This document shows, in pieces, positions 7,584-27,152 of a DNA stretch of 38,443 nt (position 1 is the first letter of the stretch; each line of letters opens with the position of its first letter). Where the stretch lies: positions 1-38,443 of the forward strand of contig JAAYPS010000065.1 in assembly GCA_012519655.1 (NCBI GenBank), in the 5' to 3' direction. The position numbers and the translations under genes are program-made. The DNA is from Clostridiaceae bacterium. GTDB lineage: Bacteria > Bacillota > Clostridia > DSM-8532. Below the pieces are notes generated by a model. That model was not told the DNA's origin and ran no database searches. It saw nothing but the letters and a program-made list of their open reading frames with translations.

Positions 7584-8117
7584 TTAATGATTAATTCCTA
7601 CAGGTGCATATTTTTTTACTAAGTATGCTGTACTATTCAACACAATCACTTGTATTGGTGCTGCTATTACTGCCTTTATAAGTCTTGCAGGGACAAGTAC
7701 CTTATATGCGGTACCTACTAACATATTCATCCATATTGAGTTCAAACCAGCCTCAACAATAAGAACCATTAATGCTGCAGCAGCAATTACTCTTAGTAAT
7801 GTTGTTTCCTTCTTATAGAGAAATAAACCATAGATAATGCCGCTTACAAAACCACTTATGGTAAACCCCGGAAAATAAGGACCTACTGGATTTACAGCCC
7901 AACCCAATATATCCCCCAAGGCTCCTGTCAGAGCGCCAGCCAAAGGTCCAAATAAAATAGAAGCCCACGCTATAGGTATAAATGTCAAACTAATCCTAAG
8001 CTCATTTGTGATATAAATCCGAAAAAACGAAAGAACCACATACAACGCAATAAACAAAGAAACTAAAACCATGGATGAAATCTTTGATAGAAATGAAAAA
8101 TAACTTTTGTTGTTCAT
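7584..8117 (-). CDS. folT: Folate-specific ECF transporter S component
   Basis: Small integral membrane protein that binds folate and docks on the shared EcfT/EcfA module. About 177 residues with some five to six hydrophobic segments. The typical S-component pattern ISLTFIPIAWASILFGPLAG and GALGDILGW lies in the first half. An in-frame ATG lies at 8135, but it overlaps the GGAGGG ribosome site that serves the ATG at 8117 (8-nt spacing), so 8117 is the start. Folate specificity is supported by the THF riboswitch just upstream. Expression appears to be controlled by that riboswitch through ribosome-site masking. Confidence 0.88.
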   Translation of the reverse strand: MNNKSYFSFLSKISSMVLVSLFIALYVVLSFFRIYITNELRISLTFIPIAWASILFGPLAGALTGALGDILGWAVNPVGPYFPGFTISGFVSGIIYGLFLYKKETTLLRVIAAAALMVLIVEAGLNSIWMNMLVGTAYKVLVPARLIKAVIAAPIQVIVLNSTAYLVKKYAPVGINH

Positions 8118-8126
8118 AAACACAAC

Positions 8127-8224
8127 CCTCCTCATGTAAATTTTCTAACCAATAAATCTGATGCTCTTATCACGCAAAAAACTAATTGGTTTAACGAGGC
8201 AATACTATATGCTACATGAAGAGG
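8127..8224 (-). promoter_or_regulatory. Anti-Shine-Dalgarno helix of folT (riboswitch expression platform)
   Basis: On the minus strand CCTCTTCATGTA (8224-8213), just 3' of the riboswitch, is complementary over 12 positions (11 Watson-Crick pairs and one G-U) to TACATGAGGAGG (8138-8127), which contains the folT ribosome site. A competing local hairpin, CATGTGGGAG with CTCTTCATG, overlaps the anti-SD strand. Ligand could therefore shift the message between open and closed ribosome-site forms. This also accounts for most of the gap between the riboswitch and folT. Confidence 0.65.
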
Positions 8225-8239
8225 AACACTCCCACATGC

Positions 8240-8340
8240 AACAGCGGGATGCGGTATATGCACCGCAAGTCATTAGACTTTTCGTCCGGATGTCAACTCC
8301 CCGTTCATCCGGCACTTAACGCGCAAACACCTACTCTGCT
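8240..8340 (-). ncRNA. Tetrahydrofolate (THF) riboswitch
   Basis: The minus strand shows, in order, AGCAGAGTAGG, GCGTTAAGTGCCGG, CCGGACGAAAAG, CTTGCGGT, and ACCGCATCCCGCTG. This matches the THF riboswitch family as recalled, notably the invariant GCGTTAAGTG and GCATCC blocks. P1 forms from AGCAG (8340-8336) and CTGTT (8244-8240), CCGGA/TCCGG closes another stem, and GCGGT/ACCGC a third. The location before folT is the classic one for this class. Confidence 0.92.
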
Positions 8341-20979: not shown

Positions 20980-21774
20980 TTAAAGCTGGCTATGTGCTAA
21001 TTCTACGACATCTTCAACTGAAAATGATTTTTGACTTTTTTCTTCTTGTCCAATATACAATAAATACTCTATATTCCCTTCAGGTCCTTTTATAGGTGAA
21101 TAAGAAAGACCTTTAATACTAAACTCTAAACCACGAACCATCTCAATTATTCCTTCAATAACTTCCCTATGAACAGCCTTATCTTTTACAACACCCTTTT
21201 TTCCGATCTTCTCCCTACCTGCTTCAAACTGCGGCTTTATGAGGCATACCATATCTGCATCAGGTTTTAAAATCTTCTTTGCTGGTATTATAATTTTTTT
21301 AAGGGAAATAAACGAAACATCGGCTGATGCAAAATCCACCATTTCACCAATATCCTCAGGATTCACATATCTAAAATTTGTACGCTCCATAACTATAACC
21401 CTATCATCGTTCCTGAGTTTCCATGCAAGCTGGCCATATCCCACATCAACTGAATATACTTTCTGTGCGCCATTTTGGAGCATACAGTCTGTAAATCCTC
21501 CCGTGGATGCACCAATATCAAGGCATATCTTACCATTTAGATTAATACTAAAATCATTTATCGCCTTTTCAAGTTTCAACCCTCCCCTACTTACATAGGG
21601 AAGCCGATTACCTTTAATCTCAATTTCAGCATCTTCATGGACTTGAAAACCTGGCTTATCCTCACGAATTCCATTAACAAAAACAATGCCTTCCATTATA
21701 GCTCTACGAGCTTTTTCGCGACTGTCAAACAATCCTTTATTAACAAGATTTACATCTAAACGTTCTTTAGGCAT
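20980..21774 (-). CDS. tlyA: TlyA-family rRNA 2'-O-methyltransferase
   Basis: S4 RNA-binding domain at residues 1-60 (RLDVNLVNKGLFDSREKAR) followed by an FtsJ/RrmJ methyltransferase domain with the SAM motif DIGASTGGFTD near 83-93. TlyA enzymes methylate ribose in 16S and 23S rRNA and set capreomycin sensitivity in mycobacteria. At 264 residues it is typical. Its start ATG (ribosome site GGTGA) lies inside the end of dxs, with a 19-bp overlap, which suggests translational coupling. The haemolysin name in older annotations is misleading. Confidence 0.92.
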   Translation of the reverse strand: MPKERLDVNLVNKGLFDSREKARRAIMEGIVFVNGIREDKPGFQVHEDAEIEIKGNRLPYVSRGGLKLEKAINDFSINLNGKICLDIGASTGGFTDCMLQNGAQKVYSVDVGYGQLAWKLRNDDRVIVMERTNFRYVNPEDIGEMVDFASADVSFISLKKIIIPAKKILKPDADMVCLIKPQFEAGREKIGKKGVVKDKAVHREVIEGIIEMVRGLEFSIKGLSYSPIKGPEGNIEYLLYIGQEEKSQKSFSVEDVVELAHSQL

Positions 21775-23684
21775 TTTATTTCACCATAAGCTTCTTTATT
21801 TTTTAACATCTTTACAACTCTCTCTTGTAATCCCACCGCATCAAGACCATATTTCTGGAACAGCAAATCCCTTCTACCCTGTTCTATAGGTTTGTCCGGA
21901 AAAGCAACCACTTCAACTTGAACATTTATATTCGCTTGGTTTAATTTACTTAGTGCTATGCTTCCAAATCCTCCGCTCTCTACGTGATCCTCAACCGTCA
22001 TTACCAAACGGGTTTTATTCGCTGACTTGCAAAGCACATCCACATCAAATGGTCTTATAAAACGATAATAAATAATATCGCAGTGTATACCTTGTAGCTG
22101 GAGTTCTTTTGCCGCTTCCATCACTGCCTCTACCCTCTGTCCTGTCACTGCAATTGTTATGTCCTCTCCATCCATAAGCTTTACAGCTTTTCCGTACTCA
22201 ATAGGGATATCTGGTACAATGTTTCGCTTACCCTGACCCCTCGGGTACCTGATAGCAATAGGCCCCTCACCTTGTTCAACAGTAAAATCAAGCATTTTCT
22301 CCAATTCGTCATAATCGGCTGGCGACATCATCGTAATATTGGGCAGAGTTGAAAATAATGCGATATCGTATACACCCTGGTGAGTTTCACCGTCTTCGCC
22401 AACTATTCCGGCTCTGTCAATAGCAAATGTGACATTTAGATTCATTAACGATACATCATGTAAAATTTGGTCATATGCTCTTTGTAAAAAGGATGAGTAT
22501 ATGGCAACAAAAGGTCTTAAACCCTTAACTGCTAACCCAGCTGCCATCGTAACTGCATGCTGCTCGGCAATTCCAACATCGAAAAACCTCTTTGGATATC
22601 TTTCACTAAAAAGGCTAAGGCCTGTTCCTTCAGGCATAGCTGCAGTAATTGCTAATATGTTTTCGTGCTCTTGCGCCAATTCTACAAGCTTTCTTCCAAA
22701 AACATTTGAAAAGCTACCATTGCTTTTTTTTATTACTTTTCCCGTGTCAATATCAAAAGGGGAAATACCATGATATTTTTGTGGTTTTTCTTCTGCCGGA
22801 GTGTATCCCCGCCCTTTTTTTGTACAAACATGAATTAAGATGGGTCCTTCCATTTCTTTAAGCTTTTGTAACACATCACGCATCTCCGAGATGTTATGCC
22901 CATCAATTGGACCATAATAGTGAAAACCTAGTTCTTCAAAAAGCACTCCTGGGAGCAATAAATACTTCAATGAGCCTTTAAATTTATGAAATATTTTTCT
23001 AGCTGATTTACCTATTGCAGGAATATTATCAACCAATGATTGAAAATCATTTCTTACTTTATAGTAAATGGGCTCGGTCCTTATTCTGCTAAGGTAACGT
23101 GACATGCCACCAACATTTTTAGATATTGACATTTCATTATCATTTAAAATAACAATCAAATTGGTTTTACTATTACCTGCGTCATTTAATGCCTCAAAGG
23201 CCATGCCACCAGTTAATGCTCCATCGCCAATAACTGCAATAACACTATTTTTTTCTCCAAGTAGATCCCTTGCTCTAGCCATTCCCAGTGCAGCCGAAAT
23301 GGAAGTAGAACTGTGACCTGTGTTAAAGCTATCGTGTACACTTTCTGTTGTTTTAGGAAAACCCGAAATACCATTCATCTGCCGAATGGTTTCAAGGGAA
23401 TCCTTTCTTCCCGTTAATACCTTATGAACATAAGTTTGGTGTCCAACATCCCATATTATCTTATCTGTGGGGGAATTGAACACAGTATGTAAAGCTATGG
23501 TTAGCTCAACTACACCCAAGTTTGACGCAATATGTCCACCTGTTTGGGAAATTTTATCTATTAAAAAAGCTCTGATTTCCTCAGCAAGAGTCTGGAGACA
23601 ACAGAGCTTAAGTTCTTTTAAATCTTCAGGTCCTTGAATACTCTCCAACACACCTGTTGAACACATGCATTTTTGCATTTTCAA
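21756..23684 (-). CDS. dxs: 1-deoxy-D-xylulose-5-phosphate synthase
   Basis: First enzyme of the MEP isoprenoid pathway: pyruvate plus glyceraldehyde-3-phosphate give DXP, with thiamine diphosphate. The cofactor motif GDGALTGG...LNDNEMSIS is in the N-terminal third. GIAEQHAVTMAAG supplies the catalytic Glu, and DRAGIVGEDGETHQG is conserved. At 642 residues it is slightly long at the N terminus. The frame opens at TTG (23684), spaced 7 nt from AAGAAGGG; the ATG two codons later (23678) is spaced 13 nt, so TTG is preferred. It follows oapA by 89 bp and overlaps tlyA. Confidence 0.95.
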   Translation of the reverse strand: MKMQKCMCSTGVLESIQGPEDLKELKLCCLQTLAEEIRAFLIDKISQTGGHIASNLGVVELTIALHTVFNSPTDKIIWDVGHQTYVHKVLTGRKDSLETIRQMNGISGFPKTTESVHDSFNTGHSSTSISAALGMARARDLLGEKNSVIAVIGDGALTGGMAFEALNDAGNSKTNLIVILNDNEMSISKNVGGMSRYLSRIRTEPIYYKVRNDFQSLVDNIPAIGKSARKIFHKFKGSLKYLLLPGVLFEELGFHYYGPIDGHNISEMRDVLQKLKEMEGPILIHVCTKKGRGYTPAEEKPQKYHGISPFDIDTGKVIKKSNGSFSNVFGRKLVELAQEHENILAITAAMPEGTGLSLFSERYPKRFFDVGIAEQHAVTMAAGLAVKGLRPFVAIYSSFLQRAYDQILHDVSLMNLNVTFAIDRAGIVGEDGETHQGVYDIALFSTLPNITMMSPADYDELEKMLDFTVEQGEGPIAIRYPRGQGKRNIVPDIPIEYGKAVKLMDGEDITIAVTGQRVEAVMEAAKELQLQGIHCDIIYYRFIRPFDVDVLCKSANKTRLVMTVEDHVESGGFGSIALSKLNQANINVQVEVVAFPDKPIEQGRRDLLFQKYGLDAVGLQERVVKMLKNKEAYGEIKCLKNV

Positions 23685-23773: not shown

Positions 23774-24415
23774 TTACTTATTTCCATTTTCTGATGTAAA
23801 TATGGAAAGAAGAGAGCCCACTTTATAAACAATTAAATTGCTATTGTTCATAGCGTATTTTTTAGCAAAAGCTTTTCCACCTACTGTTAGTGCTGCTATT
23901 AGTCCACCAATAATGGCTTCAATCCACCCTGATTGTGCTTTACCTGAAAACATATGGAATACAATTGCTGTTCCAGCCGATCCACTTACAACGCCGCAAA
24001 TATCTCCAATTACATCATTACAAATGCTAGATACCTTGTCGGCATTTCTGATCAAACGTATAGCTTGTTTTGCACCTTTATATTTCTTAGACGCCATAGC
24101 ATGAAATGGTTTCTCATCTGATACAGTCACAGCAACACCAATTACATCAAACATTACACCTATAAAAACAATGGCGAGAACTACAACCAATGACAAAAGA
24201 ACAGATACTTTTTCAAACAACCCTGTAGATATAAACAAAATGCTTAGTGACAAGAAAAAAGATATAAGGGTTACTTTAATAGCCCATATGCTTTGCTCTT
24301 TTTTAGGGCGCCCCTTCACTTTTTTTACAGGTAAGCGCCTTTCCTTTGATACTTTATATTTTTTACTTGATTGAGCTGGGTTCATTAATGCATTTTTGCT
24401 GTTATATTTTCCCAT
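23774..24415 (-). CDS. oapA: Probable OLE-associated membrane protein OapA
   Basis: A 213-residue integral membrane protein. Residues 1-40 are strongly basic (Lys/Arg-rich) and soluble. Hydrophobic segments lie at about 44-63, 70-95, 134-153 and 164-183. The stretch around 85-130 (FDVIGVAV, MASKKYKGAKQAIRLI) resembles the DUF21 part of CorB/CNNM-like proteins. Position directly after the OLE RNA and before dxs is that of OapA, the membrane protein that binds OLE RNA in Bacillus halodurans. The start ATG has only a weak, very close AGGT site and lies about 43 bp after the end of the RNA. The assignment rests on context, size and topology; without the RNA it would be a hypothetical membrane protein. 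Confidence 0.8.
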   Translation of the reverse strand: MGKYNSKNALMNPAQSSKKYKVSKERRLPVKKVKGRPKKEQSIWAIKVTLISFFLSLSILFISTGLFEKVSVLLSLVVVLAIVFIGVMFDVIGVAVTVSDEKPFHAMASKKYKGAKQAIRLIRNADKVSSICNDVIGDICGVVSGSAGTAIVFHMFSGKAQSGWIEAIIGGLIAALTVGGKAFAKKYAMNNSNLIVYKVGSLLSIFTSENGNK

Positions 24416-24457
24416 TACCTATACCAATAACATTTTAAGTACAAACCTTAATTCATA

Positions 24458-25106
24458 TAGGATGGCGATATACAAAGTAAATTTTGCGGCTTAGGTCAGG
24501 CAGGATTTCCCCAAGGCATACTGAGTCGTCGCCGAATCAGTTGTTTCCATTTAAATGCCTTGCCGACAGGTTGCCCTCGTCGTAGCCTGATCACCACTTA
24601 GTCCACACTGCAATCCCATGTATATCTGATGTACAGTCTAGGGGTTTTCCCCTAAAGTCTTATTTGCTTCTAGCCTCTTTTGCAAAGTATATTTCAAATG
24701 GCAATAATGTATGGTGTTGGCCTTACACCAAAACATCTGATCCATTATCCCTATAGCTCCACTCAAGGCAGGCTACACTGCTCACAGCACCAAAATGTGG
24801 AACCGCATAGCAGGTTCTTCCCGTTACGTAGTCAAGGTATGTAGCATTGCCAGCGCAACCTGTCTCCCACATATACGGGTCTCCACGGTAGTGGGGTCAT
24901 TTTCTACATGCCATTGTAGAATGCCCCAAAACCTTAACTCCCAGCATCAACCCATCACTGGGCGTAACAAGCCAACACCAGGAACTTCATCGATGTGCCC
25001 TTTAACGGATTTTTAGGCCCGTCTTCAAAGCAAACAGTACCAACTAGAATACTGCGCCATCCTAGATGTTAAGTATTCAGGTAATACATACTTACCACCT
25101 GAAGAT
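24458..25106 (-). ncRNA. ole: OLE RNA (ornate, large, extremophilic)
   Basis: A segment of about 650 nt with no credible frame but dense pairing, visibly richer in G and C than flanking intergenic DNA. Read on the minus strand, the 5' TAGGATGGCG (25064-25055) pairs perfectly over 10 bp with the 3' CGCCATCCTA (24467-24458), closing the whole RNA. A 3' domain nests three helices: 24494-24501 with 24585-24595, 24512-24519 with 24555-24562, and 24521-24528 with 24533-24540. A TTTAGGGG-AAAA-CCCC hairpin lies at about 24638-24656. Size, own promoter, and position before an OapA-like gene and dxs match the OLE family. The ends are inferred from the promoter and closing helix. Confidence 0.85.
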
Positions 25107-25167: not shown

Positions 25168-26196
25168 TTAAAAGTCCTCCAATCGCCATGAGTTACGGTA
25201 CACAAGCTGAACTGTATCAGGTGTTGGAAACTCAATTGGAAGCCATATATATGAGCAGCGTTCGAAATTTTGAGTATTGTGGCGTTCTGCCATATGAATG
25301 AATAGCCCAGGCTTTCCTTCCACAGGAAATACATAAGTGCTCTGTGATTCAAAAGTAGTACCCGTTACGTCATTAACACAGGGATCTCCCATATCTGTCC
25401 ATGGACCCAAGAGACTTTCTGCTCTAAAATACTTCGCAGGATTCGCACTCCATGAGGTAAGACCTGAGGTAAACATGAAATAATATCCATTATGATAAAG
25501 TATAGAAGCAGCTTCCCTCCAGTAGGCCACATCTATCCTTTGATAAACATCTGTAAAAGAAAGATAGTCGTCACTTAGCTTAACAACATGAAGACATCTA
25601 TCGGCATTGGGATCATCCCAGCTACTGCCGGGGCTTACATGCCGATCATAAATAAAATATCCAGAGCCATCTTTGTCTTTATAAACCGTGCAGTCCCGCA
25701 CATAACCATCATGGTCTATAGGACGAGTATAACCGTGCCATTCATATTGGCCATTGACAGTGCTACAGCTTGCAACACCTGCTTCGGCTGTACCAATATC
25801 AAAGCCGTGGTCTCCAGGATATTTTACATAATGGCACCATAATACAAACTTCTTCGTTTTTTCGTTATACACTATCTTGGGGCGTTCAAAACGCATAGGA
25901 CCATATAGAGGATGATCCAGATGGGTTGAACAATGTAAAATCACACCTTCATACGTCCAATTGTACAGATCTTTCGAGCTATACATCACTACTCCAACGT
26001 TTGTTGTTTGACCTCCCTGGCCTAAAGGAGCAGCAGGTAGGGGGCGAAGTGACATACCATACCAGTAGTATGTGTCATCCACATGAATCATGCCACCGTC
26101 GCTTGCATTAATTATATTACCATCAGTATCCATCCACGGTATATATTCGTTAAGCTCACCATTTGTAAATTTATCGTAGACCGTCCTATTACTCAT
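25168..26196 (-). CDS. GH43-like glycoside hydrolase, cytoplasmic
   Basis: Five-bladed beta-propeller glycosidase resembling GH43 enzymes on arabinose-, xylose- or galactose-containing glycans. The N-terminal NASDGGMIHVDDTYYWYG is the blade-one motif, VRDCTVYKDKDG probably carries the pKa-tuning Asp, and WREAASILYHNGYYFMF the acid Glu. At 342 residues there is a catalytic domain only: no signal peptide, dockerin or carbohydrate-binding module. Substrates would be imported oligosaccharides. ATG follows GGAGGG. It stands 59 bp after ispA and before the OLE promoter, a place where other OLE loci have no such gene, so it looks like an insertion. Family is likely, subfamily and substrate unknown. 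Confidence 0.78.
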   Translation of the reverse strand: MSNRTVYDKFTNGELNEYIPWMDTDGNIINASDGGMIHVDDTYYWYGMSLRPLPAAPLGQGGQTTNVGVVMYSSKDLYNWTYEGVILHCSTHLDHPLYGPMRFERPKIVYNEKTKKFVLWCHYVKYPGDHGFDIGTAEAGVASCSTVNGQYEWHGYTRPIDHDGYVRDCTVYKDKDGSGYFIYDRHVSPGSSWDDPNADRCLHVVKLSDDYLSFTDVYQRIDVAYWREAASILYHNGYYFMFTSGLTSWSANPAKYFRAESLLGPWTDMGDPCVNDVTGTTFESQSTYVFPVEGKPGLFIHMAERHNTQNFERCSYIWLPIEFPTPDTVQLVYRNSWRLEDF

Positions 26197-26255: not shown

Positions 26256-27152
26256 CTAATGTGTACGGTTTGCAATATAGTACGCAATTTCTTTTAAAAA
26301 CCAAGCTCTTTCCCCGAATATATCAATATCATTAATTGCTCTCTGCGTTACTTCGTTGAGCATTGTCTTTGCTCCCTCTAAGCCATATAAGGATACATAT
26401 GTTGTTTTCTTATTCTTCGCATCACTTCCTATGGCTTTACCTAATTCTTCAGTAGTGCTTTCCACATCAAGGATATCATCCTTTATTTGAAATGCTACCC
26501 CTATATTTTCTGAATAATTATTAAGAGCCTTAATATGCTCCGATGATGCGCCTAAACAAATTGCAGGTGCAAGAATGCTGGCTTTTATTAGAGCACCAGT
26601 CTTCTTTTTGTGCATATCCTTAAGTGTGGTTTCAGTAGTTTGCTTTCCTTCAGATTCCATATCAATGACTTGACCTGCGATCATTCCTTGCTTCCCTGCA
26701 GCAGTTGCAACAAAAAGTGAAGCTTCAGCAAACTGTTTTGCATTTTCAGCCGACTGTGTAGCAGATTTCAGTAGTAATTCGAAGGCTTCATTCAGTAATG
26801 CATCTCCTGCGAGGATTGCCATGGCTACACCAAAGACTTTGTGATTAGTCAATTTACCTCTACGATAATCATCATTGTCCATAGCAGGTAGATCATCATG
26901 GATCAATGAATATGTATGGATCATCTCAATAGCAGCAGCAAAAGGCATAACTTCCGAAACGTCTTTTGACATCATTTTTGCAATTGCTAAGGTCAAAACT
27001 GGTCTTATTCTTTTGCCGCCTCCCATAATACTATACCGCATTGCTTCTATTAATTTCTTCTCCGATACATTATCAGAAAGATTGTCAAAATGCTTTAATA
27101 AATAATCATTAACCATAGCTGATAAGGTTATTAACTCTTCCTTGAAATTCAT
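26256..27152 (-). CDS. ispA: Polyprenyl (farnesyl/geranyl) diphosphate synthase
   Basis: Condenses IPP with allylic diphosphates. The first Asp-rich motif DDLPAMD is at residues 86-92, GGGKRIRP is near 44-51, and the second motif is KDDILD. At 298 residues it is typical of IspA. The start ATG is one base after the xseB stop, and its GGAGG ribosome site is formed by the last xseB codons, so translation is coupled. Chain length (C15 or other) cannot be read with certainty. Confidence 0.94.
   Translation of the reverse strand: MNFKEELITLSAMVNDYLLKHFDNLSDNVSEKKLIEAMRYSIMGGGKRIRPVLTLAIAKMMSKDVSEVMPFAAAIEMIHTYSLIHDDLPAMDNDDYRRGKLTNHKVFGVAMAILAGDALLNEAFELLLKSATQSAENAKQFAEASLFVATAAGKQGMIAGQVIDMESEGKQTTETTLKDMHKKKTGALIKASILAPAICLGASSEHIKALNNYSENIGVAFQIKDDILDVESTTEELGKAIGSDAKNKKTTYVSLYGLEGAKTMLNEVTQRAINDIDIFGERAWFLKEIAYYIANRTH

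Follow-up and report, generated by a model that had tools for sequence, protein, structure and literature searches.

The window, that is, the whole analysed stretch of 38,443 nucleotides from a Clostridiaceae bacterium, carries on its minus strand, in this order, xseA, xseB, ispA (farnesyl diphosphate synthase, 26256-27152, above the NCBIfam cut-off), a glycosyl hydrolase family 43 (GH43)-like gene (25168-26196, Pfam E 7e-14), the gene for OLE RNA, oapA (OLE-associated membrane protein A, 23774-24415), dxs (21756-23684, assigned with Pfam) and a tlyA-like methyltransferase gene. The initial annotation had expected an ispA-dxs region with an adjoining membrane-protein gene, and this is what is present, as ispA-ole-oapA-dxs. 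In relatives, both OLE-bearing genus-mates included, a DUF212 gene lies between ispA and ole, and the GH43-like gene replaces it here. One DUF212 gene is present in each of G024, G025 and G026, and none was found anywhere in the window genome, an absence that is likely and not certain because the assembly is ~98% complete. At some distance, an ordinary THF riboswitch (8240-8340, minus strand, 94.7 bits) precedes a folT-like membrane transporter gene (7584-8135, assigned by eye); with OLE it makes up the two Rfam matches of the whole window.

Identity and fold of the RNA

The Rfam covariance model for OLE (RF01071), run with cmscan on the whole window, matches the minus strand at 24446-25076 with 498.1 bits (E 2.4e-143) against a gathering cut-off of 50 bits. 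The match is untruncated, spanning model positions 1-616, and the RNA is 631 nt long. This was the decisive test that had been named for the proposed identity, on the predicted strand and at the predicted place, and as the model matches end to end the RNA has passed it. The range originally proposed, 24458-25106, has as its limits the 3′ edge of the terminal helix and a point shortly below the -10 box, as against 24446-25076 for the Rfam match. The stretch is thus a full-length OLE RNA, an ordinary member of a family known since 2006 and present in ~2,800 genomes of a GTDB survey (PMC11332333), and a single copy was found in the genome (2.63 Mb, 198 contigs searched). That it is OLE RNA and also belongs to the OLE ribonucleoprotein can be held with high confidence. 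The resemblance to RF01071 extends over the whole model, length, helices, oapA neighbor and ispA-dxs locus, the differences being the GH43-like gene, an additional 5′ leader hairpin shared by the genus and the lack of the literal CCUCC found in the H. halodurans P6 stem. OLE RNA is among the largest structured RNAs of bacteria, and the remark that its biochemical role is still unresolved agrees with papers of 2024-2025 (PMC11332333, PMC12265935).

A perfect 10-bp helix joining the two ends had been noticed, and it is real. Its 5′ arm, UAGGAUGGCG (25064-25055), pairs with CGCCAUCCUA (24467-24458), the arms being 587 nt apart, and of 1000 single-base shuffles only 4 gave a perfect match of at least 10 between the outer 60 nt of both ends. 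When 25 OLE RNAs from the order are aligned, standard pairs fill 97.2% of the cells of this helix, and both-sided changes occur in six of the ten pairs, a level reached by no shuffle; when the partner is slid, pairing is at most 61%. Though these columns are without pairs in the Rfam consensus, the helix, named P1 here, is probably the P1 that published OLE models place in domain 2 (PMC12265935), an equation made in this work. For the same 25 RNAs RNAalifold gives 195 consensus pairs, 82 of them with compensatory change, and the window RNA taken singly has a fold z of -7.0 (from just 20 shuffles). The three nested helices that had been described for the 3′ domain agree with the Rfam consensus structure.

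Since the locus has gone from one sister genome in the genus, the OLE gene here might itself be suspected of degeneration or decay; this is very improbable, however, given 498 bits end to end, retention of compensatory changes, a conserved promoter and an intact oapA. The chance that a protein-coding or mobile-element region has been mistaken for RNA is negligible, no point in its support having been found and the RF01071 match refuting it: as the initial annotation had it, there is no credible frame and no coding signal (the longest stop-free stretch, 91 codons, is equalled in 86 of 300 shuffles, and a 73-aa antisense frame has no Pfam match), there are no phage matches, and the sole plasmid match is itself an OLE gene.

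Promoter and leader hairpin

The reported promoter, TTGCAC-17-TATAAT, is present on the minus strand at 25141-25113 and is a predicted sigma-A promoter with TG before the -10 box; the start site would then lie near 25106. An exact TATAAT is found 9-51 nt before OLE in all 25 loci of the order, and because of this constancy OLE is probably transcribed from its own promoter in the order. In this it differs from the OLE of Halalkalibacterium halodurans, which is reported to be within a polycistronic transcript (PMC12265935); here promoter-like sequence directly precedes the RNA in all relatives. The same report weakens the case for an own promoter, unless both modes of transcription occur. Given that the minus strand shows no terminator-like site from the end of OLE to oapA, independent transcription of OLE would most likely be accompanied by read-through into oapA. 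In the open literature, no paper was found that unites OLE RNA, promoter, ispA and noncoding RNA.

The distance from TATAAT to the terminal helix is 9-24 nt in 22 of the 25 loci, and 49-51 nt in the window and its genus-mates L021 and L022. The added stretch contains, between promoter and OLE, a hairpin that in the window has 11 bp (25076-25103, minus strand, fold z -2.7) and that has equivalents in both of the others, so that all three genus members have one, of 7-11 bp, with differing sequences and shuffle z values of -2.1 to -2.7. Retention of pairing despite unlike sequence is suggestive of conservation, three sequences being few. In Firmicutes mRNA a 5′ hairpin can slow decay, and the simplest reading of the leader hairpin would be as such an element, a reading that comes by analogy.

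OapA and the other protein partners

oapA starts 42 nt past the OLE terminal helix, directly downstream, and 31 of the order's 33 genomes have an orthologue of it. An opposite-strand frame of 186 aa (L089, 2037-2597) without a Pfam match lies between ole and oapA, there ~1.1 kb apart, in G032, from the order's other family. The window protein, of 213 aa, is CNNM-like: its Pfam CNNM match is weak (E 1e-5) and below the Pfam cut-off, and its AlphaFold model is of moderate confidence (pLDDT 70). The six best PDB matches to that model are all CNNM proteins, even the best having a weak Foldseek E of 0.006, and the nearest predicted fold is that of archaeal CNNM MtCorB; an MtCorB entry was likewise the match published for the OapA of H. 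halodurans (PMC11332333). OapA is accordingly modeled as having a CNNM-like helical membrane fold, the fold match being weak in E-value. For all its nearness to MtCorB, it is distinguished from the MpfA/CorB CNNM magnesium transporters (PF01595) by DxxxD and by a length, 213 aa, that leaves no room for CBS/CorC domains. DxxxD (residues 134-138), with D134 and D138 invariant across 24 homologues, is a distinctive OapA feature absent from CNNM domains (PMC11332333).

As with H. halodurans, the model system, whose OLE is of the same family, OapA, OapB, OapC and bS21 are all encoded in the window genome. The OapB orthologue lies between map and infA and matches PDB 7k9b, ‘OLE-associated protein B’ (E 1e-11); the route to it through PF00467 (KOW) was discarded, having given L24, NusG and a NusG-like protein. 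OapB is present in 32 of the 33 genomes of the order. The OapC/YbxF orthologue (E 3.5e-16) precedes rpsL-rpsG-fusA. In OLE species generally, OapB is found in ~60% and OapC in ~45% (PMC11332333).

The OLE of H. halodurans has CCUCCU in P6, where bS21 binds (PMC12054373). This anti-Shine-Dalgarno mimic is a reported feature of the H. halodurans RNA and does not define the family, and CCUCC is absent from the whole of the window RNA. Among the 25 RNAs of the order, L025 and L026 alone have it at P6 (L020 has one CCUCC, elsewhere), whereas the GGGG/CCCC pairs adjoining the mimic site are invariant. Mutants M1-M3, which alter the mimic sequence while keeping pairing, still bind bS21, and swapping the conserved G-C pairs harms binding (PMC12054373); invariant G-C pairs in RNAs lacking CCUCC would fit both results.

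Joint loss of ole and oapA, and the proposed role of the complex

Within the order OLE was found in 30 of the 33 genomes, the three without a match being G026, a single contig, and G013 and G018, both incomplete assemblies. A match to OapA with one in-frame TAG occurs in G018 (L042), and there either decay or sequencing error could be involved. The insertion suggested by a 765-nt OLE in G002 was rejected, because the assembly has runs of N there, and the cut oapA of that genome is explained likewise. A complete OLE RNA (399.8 bits) was also encountered on Pusillibacter faecalis plasmid pMM59_01 (NZ_AP023421.1; L100, 4983-5647), a replicon of 504 kb whose record describes a conjugative plasmid, together with an oapA-like CNNM gene, dxs, tlyA, NAD kinase and argR; at the sensitivity used it is the only one among 72,556 plasmid records.

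G026, a complete genome from the window's own genus, lacks both OLE and oapA. Its DUF212 gene is separated from dxs by ~180 bases (L087, 2713-2889) in which Rfam gives no OLE, with a Lentibacillus salicampi OLE (517 bits) as positive control; recognizable homology with the locus of the window does not begin again until the final bases of oapA, and the loss is a clean one. As ispA, xseB, xseA, dxs and the tlyA-like gene are retained, and OapB, OapC and bS21 with them, the loss took ole and oapA together, as one unit. From the persistence of the other partners it follows that they have work without ole-oapA, as PMC11332333 likewise infers, and that OLE and OapA are the tighter unit. G026 encodes one CNNM protein, the same number as its sisters. 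With the window genome also having one other CNNM protein besides OapA, and the OLE-less sister no extra copies, a simple swap in which more MpfA replaces OLE is not seen in the genus. Three propositions taken together, namely an own OLE promoter independent of the housekeeping operon in the order, a leader hairpin acting in the genus as a control or stability element outside the Rfam model, and an OLE-OapA unit that can be lost whole with no extra CNNM transporters taking over, seem to us evenly balanced between right and wrong.

From a mechanistic perspective, OLE would most likely be transcribed from the promoter just upstream, close on itself through the terminal helix, dimerize, and bind membrane-embedded OapA, its other partners being OapB, OapC and bS21; the location at the membrane, the dimer, the binding of proteins, and the stress and Mg2+ phenotypes are known from published work on other species. 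The complex would then most likely be an RNA-built regulator of OapA, and hence of magnesium and stress adaptation. That OapA has an ion-handling activity under the control of OLE RNA is our preferred reading, put forward tentatively, with a ribozyme or a general scaffold as the alternatives. OLE being mainly a ribozyme, for which OapA is merely the membrane anchor, is rather unlikely: size and conservation are typical of large ribozymes (PMC11332333), and the long invariant unpaired stretches are conserved in the order's 25 aligned RNAs as well, but no reaction is known for OLE, and published cryo-EM structures show some of the invariant nucleotides in use for contacts within the dimer (PMC12286853, PMC12265935). 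Slightly less likely still is a passive role for OLE, as a scaffold or sink that would tune translation by sequestering OapC and bS21. Both bind H. halodurans OLE (PMC12054373, PMC9723947) and both genes are in the window genome; against this, the literal mimic is missing at P6 in 23 of the 25 RNAs, and OapB, OapC and bS21 remain where OLE has been lost.

What the locus adds is a set of small comparative facts and no new kind of system. In line with M1-M3 (PMC12054373), a literal anti-Shine-Dalgarno sequence cannot be what bS21 binding depends on, if such binding is general. The genus itself allows a comparison set up by nature, between close relatives that have ole-oapA and one that lacks it, the latter a closed genome in which the flanking genes are intact.
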